From: Chitinophaga pinensis
GTDB lineage: Bacteria > Bacteroidota > Bacteroidia > 2-12-FULL-35-15
Reading direction: 5' to 3'
DNA length: 64,000 bases
Assembly (NCBI GenBank): GCA_945885475.1
Contig: CAMCYR010000005.1
Coordinates: 1-64,000, forward strand
Shown: piece after piece, positions 28,602-57,724 of the stretch
Position numbering within the stretch: the stretch's first letter is position 1
Layout of the letters: every line of letters begins with the position of its first letter
Position numbers and translations under genes: made by a program
The notes under the pieces: model-generated
The model's database searches: none
The model's input: the letters and a program-made list of their open reading frames with translations, nothing else
Told to the model about the DNA's origin: nothing

Positions 28602-28620
28602 AAAATTCACCACAAATAAC

Positions 28621-29097
28621 ACCAAGTATCACAGGAAAATCTGAGTAAATCTGAGTAATCTGTGGTAAAAAGAAAATAACACAACGTATCAAAGAAAAAT
28701 CTGAGTAAATCTGAGTAATCTGTGGTAAAAAGAAAATAACACAACGTATCACAGAAAAATCTGAGTAAACCTGAGTAATCTGTGGTAAAAAGAAAATAAC
28801 ACAACGTATCACAGAAAAATCTGAGTAAATCTGAGTAATCTGTGGTAAAAAGAAAATAACACAACGTATCACAGAAAAATCTGAGTAAATCTGAGTAATC
28901 TGTGGTAAAAAGAAAATAACACAACGTATCACAGAAAAATCTGAGTAAATCTGAAAAATCTGTGGTAAAAAGAAAATAACACAACGTATCACAGAAAAAT
29001 CTGAGTAAATCTGAGTAATCTGTGGTAAAAAGAAAATAATACAACGTATCAAAGAAAAATCTGAGTAAATCTGAGTAATCTGTGGTAAAAAGAAAAT
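28621..29097. repeat. Direct tandem array, 60-bp unit x 8, no spacers
   Basis: Unit acaacgtatcacagaaaaatctgagtaaatctgagtaatctgtggtaaaaagaaaataac repeats in exact 60-nt register with few substitutions. Confidence 0.97.
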
Positions 29098-30588
29098 ATG
29101 CACACAATAACAACAGCCCAATTATCCTTACAAACGATTTCTGAAATCATTTCAGGGAACAAAAAACTTGCTCTTTCCGAAGAAGCAAAAAAGAACATTT
29201 CATCTTGTCGCGATTACCTCGATAAAAAAATGCGTTCTCAGAAAGGCCCAATCTACGGTATCAACACAGGTTTCGGTTCTTTGTGCAATGTTGTGATTCC
29301 TGATAATGAACTGGAACAATTGCAAACCAATTTAGTGATGTCCCATGCCTGTGGAACCGGAGATGAAGTGCCGAATGAAGTAGTAAAGTTAATGTTGCTG
29401 CTTAAGATACAAGCACTTTGTTATGGCAAATCAGGGGTTCAATTACAAACCGTTGAACGCCTTGTTGATTTTTTTAATAACGATGTGCTACCTATCGTTT
29501 ACCAACAAGGATCCTTAGGTGCTTCCGGTGATTTATCTCCTTTAGCGCATATGTGTTTGCCTTTGCTTGGAATGGGTGAGGTGTTTTACAATGGAAAAAA
29601 ACAAGCAGCAGCAGCTGTTTTAAAGGAATTAAATTTTAAACCGATAGCGCTCAAATCAAAAGAAGGTTTAGCCTTGCTGAATGGAACACAATTTATGAGC
29701 GCATATGGTGTTTGGTGTTTACTGCAAACAAAAAAATTAAACATTGCTGCCGATGTGATCAGTGCTATTTCCTTGGATGCCTTCGATGGTCGTATCGATC
29801 CTTTTAAACCGCATATACATTCTATCCGGCCGCACAAAGGGCAAATACAAACTGCTGCGAATATGCGTAAGCTCTTAGAAGGAAGTGAAATTATTAAACG
29901 TGAAAAAGAACATGTTCAAGATCCCTATTCATTCCGTTGCATACCTCAAGTGCATGGTGCTTCAAAGGATGCGATTGAATATGTAGAAAATGTGTTCCTC
30001 ACAGAAATTAATTCTGTTACAGATAACCCTACCGTTTTTCCGGAGGAGGATGAAATTATTTCTGGTGGAAATTTTCATGGTCAACCCTTGGCCTTGGCGC
30101 TCGATTTTTTAGCGATTGCTTTGGCTGAATTAGGAAATATTTCTGAAAGAAGAACCTATCAGTTGATTGCAGGGCTGCGTGGTTTGCCTCCATTTTTAGT
30201 TGCGAAGCCTGGATTGAATTCCGGTTTTATGATTCCTCAATATACTGCTGCGAGTATCGTTAGTCAGAATAAACAGTTGTGTTCACCCGCTTCCGTTGAT
30301 TCCATTGTTAGTTCAAACGGACAAGAAGATCATGTTTCGATGGGTGCGAATGCGGCAACAAAATGTTTTAAAGTAGTGGAGAATTTACAGCGCATCTTAG
30401 CAATCGAATTGTTCAATGCCGCACAAGCGATCGAATTTAGAAAACCTCTGAAATCATCCAATGCAATTGAGCATGTGCTTGCCGATTTTAGAAAAAATGT
30501 ACCCTTTGTGGATCAAGATATCATTATGTATACGCAGATGGATGCATGTGTTCAATTTTTGAAAGAGCGTCAATTTTCTATAGGATGA
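29098..30588 (+). CDS. hutH: Histidine ammonia-lyase
   Basis: YGINTGFGSL...QGSLGASGDLSPLAHMCLPLLG (MIO ASG motif)...NGQEDHVSMG. Confidence 0.94.
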   Translation: MHTITTAQLSLQTISEIISGNKKLALSEEAKKNISSCRDYLDKKMRSQKGPIYGINTGFGSLCNVVIPDNELEQLQTNLVMSHACGTGDEVPNEVVKLMLLLKIQALCYGKSGVQLQTVERLVDFFNNDVLPIVYQQGSLGASGDLSPLAHMCLPLLGMGEVFYNGKKQAAAAVLKELNFKPIALKSKEGLALLNGTQFMSAYGVWCLLQTKKLNIAADVISAISLDAFDGRIDPFKPHIHSIRPHKGQIQTAANMRKLLEGSEIIKREKEHVQDPYSFRCIPQVHGASKDAIEYVENVFLTEINSVTDNPTVFPEEDEIISGGNFHGQPLALALDFLAIALAELGNISERRTYQLIAGLRGLPPFLVAKPGLNSGFMIPQYTAASIVSQNKQLCSPASVDSIVSSNGQEDHVSMGANAATKCFKVVENLQRILAIELFNAAQAIEFRKPLKSSNAIEHVLADFRKNVPFVDQDIIMYTQMDACVQFLKERQFSIG

Positions 30589-31344: not shown

Positions 31345-31959
31345 ATGAATAAATTCAAATCACATCCATGGCATGGCATTTCTCCTGGCAACGAGGCCCC
31401 TACTGTTGTTACCGCCTTCATCGAGATCGTTCCTTCCGATACCGTCAAATATGAAGTAGATAAAGAAACGGGGCATTTGAAGATCGATCGTCCACAGAAA
31501 TTTTCAAATGTGCTTCCTTCCTTATATGGATTTATTCCGCAAACGTATTGCGATGTTAAAATTGCTGAATTTGCTGCGCTAAAGTCGGGTCGTCCCGTTA
31601 TGAAAGGTGATGGTGATCCGTTGGATATTTGTGTGCTGACGGAGAAAACGATTTCGCACGGTGATATTTTGTTGCAGGCTATTCCTATCGGTGGATTAAG
31701 GTTGATCGATAAAGGTGAAGCTGACGATAAAATTATTGCGGTGATGAAAGGCGATGAAGTGTTTGAAGAATGGAAAGATATCAGCGACTGCACCCAAGCA
31801 GTGATTGACCGGCTGAAACATTATTTTTTGACTTACAAAAATTTACCGGGTGCTGAAAATCCTACATGCGAGATCACACAGGTTTACGGTAGGGAAGAGG
31901 CATATGAAGTTATTAAAAGAAGTATGGAAGATTATAAAAATAAGTTTTTGACAAAGTAA
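31345..31959 (+). CDS. ppa: Inorganic pyrophosphatase
   Basis: FIEIVPSDTVKYEVDKETGHLKIDRP...LYGFIPQTYC...GDGDPLDICVLTE. Confidence 0.92.
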   Translation: MNKFKSHPWHGISPGNEAPTVVTAFIEIVPSDTVKYEVDKETGHLKIDRPQKFSNVLPSLYGFIPQTYCDVKIAEFAALKSGRPVMKGDGDPLDICVLTEKTISHGDILLQAIPIGGLRLIDKGEADDKIIAVMKGDEVFEEWKDISDCTQAVIDRLKHYFLTYKNLPGAENPTCEITQVYGREEAYEVIKRSMEDYKNKFLTK

Positions 31960-31973
31960 ATTTAGGAAAGAAA

Positions 31974-32093
31974 AATGCTTGTCGCCAGTCATTTCCAGCG
32001 GAATCGATTGTCAGTTCGAGCGGAGTCGAGAACGAGATTAATATAAGTAAGAAAAATGCCTGTCGCCAGTCAGTTCGAGCGGAGTCGAGAACC
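31974..32093. repeat. Two tandem copies of a Bacteroidota-type palindrome-containing repeat (TGTCGCCAGTCA...TTCGAGCGGAGTCGAGAAC)
   Basis: aaaatgc(t/c)tgtcgccagtca and cagttcgagcggagtcgagaac occur twice within 120 bp. Confidence 0.85.
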
Positions 32094-32121
32094 AATTAAA
32101 GTCAATTAAGAGCGATAACCA

Positions 32122-32556
32122 ATGTCAGAATCAAGATACTTATTTGTATACATCCTAAAGTGTTCAGATAACACTTATTACACTGGTTTCACTTATAATC
32201 CAGAAAGAAGAATTGAAGAACACAATTCAGGGGACAATAAAAATAGTTATACTTCACAACGATTACCTGTTGAAATGATTTTTTGTGAAAAATTTACTGA
32301 TTTTAATCTAGCAATCATTTGGGAGAAAAAGATTAAAGATTGGAGTCGAAAAAAGAAGGAAGCTCTGATTAAAGAAAACTGGGACCAATTAAAGATTGAG
32401 GCGGCTTGTAAGAATTATACTTCTCATAAGAACTTGTTTGGCCAGGCATCCTCGGTTCTCGACTCCGCTCGAACTGAAACTCAAGAATCCTTGTCTGCCC
32501 AAACAGTTGTAGTAAGAAGTCAATCACATTTTACTATTGTCGATACCAATGCTTAA
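32122..32556 (+). CDS. GIY-YIG nuclease family protein
   Basis: LFVYILKCSDNTYYTGFTYNPERRIEEHNSG...; C-terminus reads through an inverted repeat copy (SVLDSARTET). Confidence 0.88.
   Translation: MSESRYLFVYILKCSDNTYYTGFTYNPERRIEEHNSGDNKNSYTSQRLPVEMIFCEKFTDFNLAIIWEKKIKDWSRKKKEALIKENWDQLKIEAACKNYTSHKNLFGQASSVLDSARTETQESLSAQTVVVRSQSHFTIVDTNA
32454..32477. repeat. Inverted copy of 32070-32093 (perfect 24 nt), inside the GIY-YIG ORF
   Basis: ggttctcgactccgctcgaactga is the reverse complement of tcagttcgagcggagtcgagaacc. Confidence 0.92.
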
Positions 32557-33205
32557 TGTTTATTGTATACCTGGAATGGGGGTGAATGAAAGATTATTCA
32601 AAAATTTAAAGTTGAGTAATTGCAGCATTCGTTATATAAGGTGGGAAACACCATTCAGAAAAGAATCACTTGCAGATTATGCGATGCGTCTTTCCAAACA
32701 AATTGATACGACTCAGCCATTTGTCTTGATTGGCGTTTCTTTTGGAGGAATGTGTTGTGTAGAGATTTCAAAAAAGCTCAAACCTTTGAAAACCTTCATT
32801 ATTTCTAGTAGTAAATTTCATACGGAGTTGCCTTTCAAGATTACTTTTTGGAGGATGCTTCCTTTGTACAGACTTTTTAATGATGGATTTTTTAAAGATG
32901 CGGCAATGATTGCTAAAAAGCAATTTGGAGTATTTACAGATGAACAGAAAAAGAGTTTTAGAAGGATGTTGGATGAAGCTCCTCAAAATTATTTTAACGG
33001 AGCTGTTGATTGTATCGTCAAATGGAAAAATGAAATCCGTCCTGAAAATTTAATTCATCTCCATGGAACTGCTGACAGGGTGCTTCCGCACTCGAAAGTT
33101 GTAGCATGTGATTATTCTATCAAAGGTGGAACGCATTTCATGATCATCAATAAAGCGGAAGAGATCAGTGAAATTATAAATAAAGAAGTGGAAGGTTATT
33201 GTTGA
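32549..33205 (+). CDS. Alpha/beta hydrolase
   Basis: YCIPGMGVNERLF...FVLIGVSFGGMCCVEISKKL (GxSxGG)...HLHGTADRVLP. Confidence 0.8.
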   Translation: MLNVYCIPGMGVNERLFKNLKLSNCSIRYIRWETPFRKESLADYAMRLSKQIDTTQPFVLIGVSFGGMCCVEISKKLKPLKTFIISSSKFHTELPFKITFWRMLPLYRLFNDGFFKDAAMIAKKQFGVFTDEQKKSFRRMLDEAPQNYFNGAVDCIVKWKNEIRPENLIHLHGTADRVLPHSKVVACDYSIKGGTHFMIINKAEEISEIINKEVEGYC

Positions 33206-43541: not shown

Positions 43542-43566
43542 TGTCAGTTCGAGCGGAGTCGAGAAC
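43542..43566. repeat. Dispersed copy of the TTCGAGCGGAGTCGAGAAC repeat in the paaA-paaB intergenic region
   Basis: tgtcagttcgagcggagtcgagaac. Confidence 0.9.
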
Positions 43567-43625
43567 AAGGGAGTTGAGAAGACGAATCATGATAGTAGAA
43601 AAAATAGACAAATAAAAAAAAGATT

Positions 43626-57663: not shown

Positions 57664-57724
57664 CGTTTCTCGACTTCGCTCGAAATGACATTGCGCTATA
57701 TCATTTCGAGCGGAGTCGAGAAAG
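57664..57724. repeat. Inverted pair of the TTCGAGCGGAGTCGAGAA repeat forming a long hairpin
   Basis: tttctcgacttcgctcgaaatga ... tcatttcgagcggagtcgagaaa, one mismatch in 23 bp. Confidence 0.92.

Follow-up and report, generated by a model that had tools for sequence, protein, structure and literature searches.

Bracketing by inverted copies of a GTCA- or CGTC-tagged palindromic repeat (REP) is confined to one branch of small GIY-YIG nucleases in two phyla, Bacteroidota and Pseudomonadota, and the bracketed gene is present or absent at orthologous sites, including insertions inside conserved operons. Together with its two inverted REPs, whose tags point outward, the nuclease gene likely forms a minimal mobile element of ~0.45 kb, in which cleavage of the REP is inferred without biochemistry. 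The solo repeats, 59-bp direct pairs and inverted pairs scattered elsewhere are probably the non-autonomous products of this element. Since the same arrangement surrounds one enzyme branch in two phyla, the nuclease probably spreads these palindromic repeats, which make up a large class in bacteria. The observation made at a single locus is confirmed and extends far beyond what was first noted.

The nuclease gene and its repeats in the window

The window, the 64,000-nt stretch of DNA analysed here, contains a GIY-YIG nuclease gene (32122-32556, plus strand, 144 aa; ORF with a Pfam match) bracketed by a perfect 24-nt inverted repeat, with TCAGTTCGAGCGGAGTCGAGAACC at 32070-32093 (plus strand) and its exact reverse complement at 32454-32477. 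Allowing up to three mismatches, TCAGTTCGAGCGGAGTCGAGAACC has six matches in the window versus none in 100 dinucleotide-preserving shuffles. The full unit, (T/A)GTCAGTTCGAGCGGAGTCGAGAAC, combines an imperfect palindrome with a GTCA tag that stays unpaired, and the tags face outward to the left and right of the gene. Sequence matching places REP copy 1 (one mismatch, GTCA tag outward) at 32010-32033 on the plus strand, followed after 59 bp by copy 2, the left terminal repeat, at 32069-32093 (plus strand, GTCA tag outward); copy 3, the right terminal repeat, is inverted and lies within the 3′ end of the ORF at 32454-32477 (minus strand).

The left flank is an ORF at 31345-31959 (plus strand), which we take to be the inorganic pyrophosphatase gene (ppa), the product name resting on sequence family knowledge. 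The right flank is an alpha/beta-hydrolase-like ORF at 32537-33205 (plus strand), and the ppa-hydrolase order is kept in sister species. A degenerate REP (GTCATTTCCAGCGGAATCGA, 31988-32007, plus strand) pre-existed at the site, as the sister genome G160 carries one REP-like sequence here without the nuclease. The proposed mobile element, composed of the REP direct pair, the nuclease gene and the inverted REP, spans 32008-32477 (plus strand) at a site that is empty in sisters, with its right boundary within or at the end of the 3′ REP (about 32477). A solo REP (43542-43567, plus strand) and an inverted REP pair with tags facing each other (57665-57724, no strand assigned) lie further along the window, and both are polymorphic in presence between sister species.

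A first-pass annotation, made from sequence alone, had described the perfect 24-nt inverted repeat and the ORF tail VLDSARTE encoded by its 3′ copy, and both descriptions held. So did its solo copy at 43542-43566 and its inverted pair at 57664-57724, with coordinates corrected to 43544-43567 and 57665-57724. Its tandem diverged copy at 31974-32028 held in part, the diverged copy being 31988-32007, and it overlooked the nearest tandem copy, which has a single mismatch and lies at 32010-32033, 59 bp before 32069-32093. Calling the repeat a palindrome is also only partly right, a generous term for one imperfect, weakly folding unit. Elsewhere in the window, a 60-bp tandem array of 8.1 copies at 96% identity (AAATAACACAACGTATCACAGAAAAATCTGAG...) occupies 28614-29098, directly followed by a histidine ammonia-lyase look-alike gene (29098-30588). 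Rfam returned nothing in the window.

The window protein matches Pfam GIY-YIG (PF01541; E = 2.7e-17) over residues 8-79, with no other Pfam match, and NCBIfam returned no family for it. In A1, residues Y20, G22, R30 and E68 (window numbering) do not vary, nor do the equivalent positions in A2. The wider clade has in common a C-terminal helix, KKEALI..(D/N)W..L or LIE..NP.W.DL, with catalytic Tyr, Arg and Glu invariant. The AlphaFold model is confident from residue 1 to ~95 and disordered beyond, and the last residues of the ORF are encoded by the REP and old intergenic DNA. The nearest solved structures are those of UPF0213 (1zg2 and 1ywl), then Slx1, then UvrC. Within the subfamily pN is ~0.13 and synonymous change is near-saturated (some values exceed 1, so that low pN alone was used); the low amino-acid change against this background places the nuclease under purifying selection.

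The 3.06-Mb source genome (84 contigs) holds 51 copies of the window-type repeat at up to two mismatches, and the pattern read backwards, as a control, has no copy genome-wide. Many copies are paired in direct orientation at a distance of 58-60 bp, the spacer being conserved; others form inverted pairs with tags facing. Folded as single-stranded DNA, one window unit is no more stable than its shuffles (z about +0.7), but the inverted pair at 57665 reaches -24 kcal/mol (z -7) and a CGTC-REP from Pseudomonadota forms a strong fold even as one unit (z -4.6). Hairpin recognition is thus unsupported in the window lineage, where the single unit is a weak hairpin; considered as a general signal it was rejected, fitting Pseudomonadota and not the weak Bacteroidota unit. 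The same genome carries three small GIY-YIG genes and one 630-aa gene of UvrC size. No bracket was detected around its second clade member (L031, G000:C3:71405-71626), possibly an old, decayed or domesticated copy. L031 adjoins ribosome-recycling-factor-like and uridylate-kinase-like ORFs.

Bracketing across the nuclease family

A scan of one genome per species provided 50 Bacteroidota relatives. At 31 loci of the window subfamily, the repeat core TCGAGAA often lies ~25 bp upstream of the start, with an inverse copy at the stop codon. Within 600 bp of these nuclease genes the core is 17 times denser than elsewhere at the same loci, with 142 copies in 35.7 kb (3.97/kb) near the gene versus 31 in 131 kb (0.24/kb). 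No core enrichment is found at 18 loci of other GIY-YIG subfamilies (2 copies in 21.6 kb, 0.09, versus 8 in 83.1 kb, 0.10). Random placement of the palindromes relative to GIY-YIG genes would have refuted the first-pass proposal; it was checked, and the 17-fold density near the nuclease gives no refutation.

The Pseudomonadota set comprises 60 non-UvrC GIY-YIG genes from 150 genomes, with at most 10 kb of flank per side. Exact inverted repeats of 12 bp or more span 21 of these 60 unselected genes (35%), and 76 of 2545 random intervals from the same loci (3.0%). Among the brackets are classical CGTC-REPs, for example CGTCATTCCCGCGAAGGCGGGAATCCAG (L137, L162 and other loci), which matches the CGTC-REP definition of a CGTC/TGTC tag, an 8-9 bp stem starting AT, a 4-5 nt loop and a CCA tail. 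Related tagged bracket repeats in this phylum are CGTCATGCCCGGGCTTGGCCCGGG, GTCATACCGACGCAAGTCGGTATCCAG and CCTTCATCCTGAGCTTGTCGAAGGACG. The window repeat TGTCAGTTCGAGCGGAGTCGAGAAC has a TGTC tag, but its stem is bulged and folds no better than shuffles. The TGA stop codon forms part of the tag (…AATGA followed by C) in 18/62 clade genes versus 1/31 others.

In a tree of 104 small GIY-YIG genes, a single clade of 58 (bootstrap/aLRT 94/86) contains every one of the 47 bracketed genes, and none of the 46 genes outside it is bracketed. The initial scoring missed the window gene, whose 3′ REP lies inside the ORF, and the search region was widened for later tests. With the threshold set at the 1% level of random intervals within the same loci, brackets surround 26 of 33 held-out Pseudomonadota clade genes (further genes from the same 150 genomes) and 18 of 28 testable held-out Bacteroidota clade genes (sample of 148 genomes). 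About one quarter of clade genes fail the bracketing test; some of the unbracketed held-out genes are explained by short contigs and by REPs that have diverged. Overall, the clade gene occurs in 34/150 sampled Pseudomonadota and 29/148 sampled Bacteroidota genomes.

An unannotated clade member, 67% identical to L137, is present in Neisseria gonorrhoeae (L322, NZ_CP119140.1, 1882275-1882553), among dRS3/CGTC-1-type copies. Such copies are so dense there that its bracket, scoring 26.5 where controls reach at most 25.5, does not clearly stand out. The NZ_CP119140.1 record is 2.17 Mb long and filed as a plasmid.

Repeat type follows nuclease subfamily. Clade genes occur in 14/26 genomes of the window's genus, one to three in each, and comprise five subfamilies, each with its own repeat: TGTCAGTTCGAGCGGAGTCGAGAAC, GGTCATTTCGAGTTTATCGAGAAA, CGTCAGTTCGAGT..GTATCGAGAAC, TGTCACTCTGAGCTTGTCGAAGAGTG and TGTCACCCTGAGCGGAGTCGAAGGG. 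Protein identity correlates with cross-repeat similarity (Mantel r 0.60, 0/5000 permutations), the p-value being somewhat generous because the set contains groups sharing a locus by descent. Among paralogues within one genome, repeats are common only to members of the same subfamily. In another family of the same class, the window REP type surrounds the nuclease at L362 (G278:C19; TTGTCAGTTCGAGCGGAGTCGAGAACC), and either wide conservation or horizontal transfer of the pair is possible.

Clade genes are enriched in repeat-rich genomes. One CGTC-REP type (at least 5 copies) is present in 11/150 genomes, 7 of which carry a clade gene, compared with 34/150 overall (Fisher p = 0.003); a second repeat type gives Fisher p = 0.002. 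A strict one-to-one relation between repeat abundance and nuclease presence was rejected, with G042, G058, G090 and the sister genome G161 as exceptions. No clade nuclease was found in G042 (L219), which has 69 CGTC-REPs that may be orphan repeats or reflect an incomplete assembly, and the clade gene is absent from G058, which has 15. In G090, which has the most CGTC-REPs (487), the sole clade nuclease is broken into two overlapping pieces (L217, G090:C87:1560-1872). Repeats in G042, G058 and G090 therefore outlive the nuclease or have other sources. For GTAG REPs, likewise, the presence of the enzyme gene and that of the repeat family are not strictly correlated (PMC3733652).

Empty sites and alternative positions

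Sister species served for the empty-site comparison that the first-pass annotation had put forward, and both the element and the solo REPs proved absent at orthologous sites. The window element is missing between ppa and the hydrolase gene in G160, G157, G165, G156, G172 and others. The ppa stop directly abuts the hydrolase start in G157 and G165, and G160 retains matching flanking DNA on both sides with one REP-like sequence and no nuclease. As G160 holds the lone old REP between the same flanks, the window insert begins at 32008, right after that REP. The solo REP at 43544 and the pair at 57665 are both shared by the window genome (G000) and G161, and both are lacking in G178, G157 and G165.

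Window-type nuclease copies in G172, G162 (two copies) and G173 occupy unrelated neighbourhoods, and homology of the window to the copies in G172 and G162 ends at 32477, at the REP tag. One REP-bounded GIY-YIG gene apparently lies between cas1-like and cas2-like ORFs (L247 2407-4450, G162:C41), and another window-type copy lies between emrA-like and emrB-like ORFs, neighbour names that come from our reading of the translations. On the Azospirillum lipoferum 4B plasmid AZO_p3, the order is sufB, REP pair, GIY-YIG gene (WP_014249537.1), REP pair, sufC, and sufB-sufC is free of the insert in A. ramasamyi, A. oryzae, A. sp. B510 and A. thermophilum at ~90-96% identity. No clear target-site duplication was found at the window site or in A. 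lipoferum, where the flanks have diverged. Loss may contribute to the presence/absence pattern. The first-pass claim of an autonomous element with non-autonomous derivatives is supported by the clade-specific brackets in two phyla and by these empty sites.

Proposed mechanism, related systems and rival explanations

In the proposed mechanism, which is inferred throughout, the nuclease would recognise its own REP type and cut at the GTCA tag or close to it. Host repair or replication would then join or copy the released piece, be it a REP, a REP pair or a REP-gene-REP segment, at another location, preferentially beside existing REPs. GIY-YIG enzymes hydrolyse DNA and release the product with no covalent intermediate, unlike RAYT, so joining would be left to the host through ligation, recombination or replication. 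According to the summary in PMC3733652, RAYT cleaves single-stranded REPs at GTAG, and the outward GTCA tags at both ends of the element suggest an equivalent role for GTCA. Given the weak hairpin of the window unit, recognition of duplex DNA or of inverted pairs may matter in Bacteroidota. The position of the window element next to an older REP suggests REP-directed insertion, nearer to homing than to classical transposition, and the REP may serve as both boundary and target, as for a homing nuclease. The degenerate REP that stands alone in G160 is compatible with homing without proving it.

The arrangement resembles RAYT/REP systems (REPtrons; TnpA-REP, IS200/IS605-related HUH transposases with GTAG-tagged REPs) in that one or a few enzyme genes per genome are flanked by REPs, many solo and paired REPs lie elsewhere, enzyme and repeat diversify together, and the repeats carry an unpaired tetranucleotide tag. 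The differences are that the window enzyme is GIY-YIG and lacks HUH/Y1 (PF01797), whereas RAYT is HUH/Y1; that the tag is GTCA (TGTCA, CGTCA) rather than GTAG; and that the GIY-YIG gene itself varies in presence between orthologous sites. The RAYT/REP analogy drawn in the first-pass annotation thus holds as a functional likeness and not as homology. MITEs and minimal insertion sequences also have terminal inverted repeats, empty sites and non-autonomous derivatives, but the window element has no DDE, HUH, serine or tyrosine transposase, measures ~0.45 kb and shows no target-site duplication that we could find. Free-standing GIY-YIG homing endonucleases of the I-TevI type and Penelope-like retroelements are likewise selfish elements using a GIY-YIG nuclease; the window element differs in having REP boundaries and no intron, intein, NUMOD, DNA-binding module or reverse transcriptase. 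UPF0213 proteins (YhbQ, COG2827; 1zg2, 1ywl) have the same domain and size and are the nearest solved structures, but the REP-linked branch is a separate clade with an extra C-terminal helix (W/F/Y..L after 'KKEALI' or 'LIE..NP'), and plain UPF0213-type relatives are unbracketed.

The Pseudomonadota bracket repeats fit the CGTC-REPs of Di Nocera et al. 2013 (PMC3733652), which include Neisseria dRS3 and Rickettsia RPE-4/RPE-6, and the repeats of many clade genes in this phylum have the CGTC tag, 8-bp stem, 4-nt loop and CCA tail. In Bacteroidota the tag is present but the stem of the unit is weak and bulged, and membership in CGTC-1 to -4 is not shown. According to the 2013 survey, CGTC-REPs 'apparently lack a dedicated transposase' (PMC3733652). 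A specific, testable enzyme candidate can now be named for these widespread repeats, enzyme-less since that survey (PMC3733652), and the origin of CGTC-tagged repeats, including copies inside genes, would become directly testable. A bolder reading, to which we give equal weight for and against, is that this GIY-YIG branch is the missing mobiliser of bacterial GTCA/CGTC-tagged REPs and represents a new class of mobile element, with hydrolytic cutting at REP tags, host-dependent joining and independence from known transposase classes. If true, it would be a non-homologous counterpart to RAYT/REP and an instance of REP-propagating enzymes evolving convergently, and many genes annotated as 'GIY-YIG nuclease family' or 'excinuclease ABC subunit C' would be re-annotated as parts of mobile elements.

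The first-pass annotation had offered no established name for the association, and we found no GIY-YIG/REP link in the literature searched, which mostly excluded subscription papers and preprints, so that an unseen report is possible. The link is absent from the searched parts of the papers on CGTC-REPs (PMC3733652), GIY-YIG phylogenomics (PMC1564403) and Caulobacter COG2827 (PMC1839093), and also from those of an HUH survey (PMC6006769) and a 2025 REP survey (PMC12306157).

Four rival explanations were considered. The one that survives best, though unlikely, is a housekeeping role, in which an Slx1-like structure-specific nuclease trims or resolves REP hairpins or cruciforms, the REPs at its gene being autoregulatory and spread by other means. 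In its favour, Slx1 is among the fold and profile relatives, and many members have a stop codon overlapped by the REP (the TGA-then-C configuration, 18/62 against 1/31). Against it, the gene is absent at orthologous sites and present at unrelated loci in sister species, its distribution is patchy (14/26 genomes of the genus), and several diverged nucleases coexist per genome, each with its own repeat.

A passenger role, in which RAYT/IS200 or another enzyme moves the GTCA-tagged REPs with the GIY-YIG gene as mere cargo, is highly improbable. Y1 transposase genes are indeed present in 13 of 18 genomes checked, but G130, G032, G160, G165 and G178 have none, and G032 nevertheless holds 118 CGTC-REPs. 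Where Y1 genes are present, some have flanking repeats, and these differ (e.g., GCTCCAGAGGAGCGA, TTGCCCCGGAGGGGCAAA); a few GTCA-REPs of known type lie 0.6-1.7 kb from Y1 genes, and no Y1 gene is bracketed by them. In the survey of Di Nocera et al. 2013, too, CGTC units flanked no RAYT (PMC3733652), and cargo would not consist of one GIY-YIG branch with matched repeats. On testing, the passenger idea found no support. The RAYT-type Y1 genes of the window's genus (L296, L297, L311, L318) have their own flanking palindromes, so two unrelated REP systems coexist.

A repair role, in which these small COG2827 proteins support nucleotide excision repair as back-up nucleases and have nothing to do with REPs, is harder still to sustain. 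The Caulobacter COG2827 genes have been read as repair back-ups, one of them with an SOS box (PMC1839093), and this SOS box and the catalytic domain common to UvrC speak for the idea, which leaves the REP brackets, matched repeat types and empty sites unexplained. It may apply to non-clade relatives. Coincidence, in which REPs gather at small horizontally acquired genes of every kind and the brackets lack specificity, draws on the abundance and mostly intergenic position of REPs in the genomes examined and is made very improbable by the absence of brackets at 46 other GIY-YIG genes, by their presence at 3% of random same-locus intervals versus 35% of unselected GIY-YIG genes, and by the match of repeat type to nuclease subfamily.
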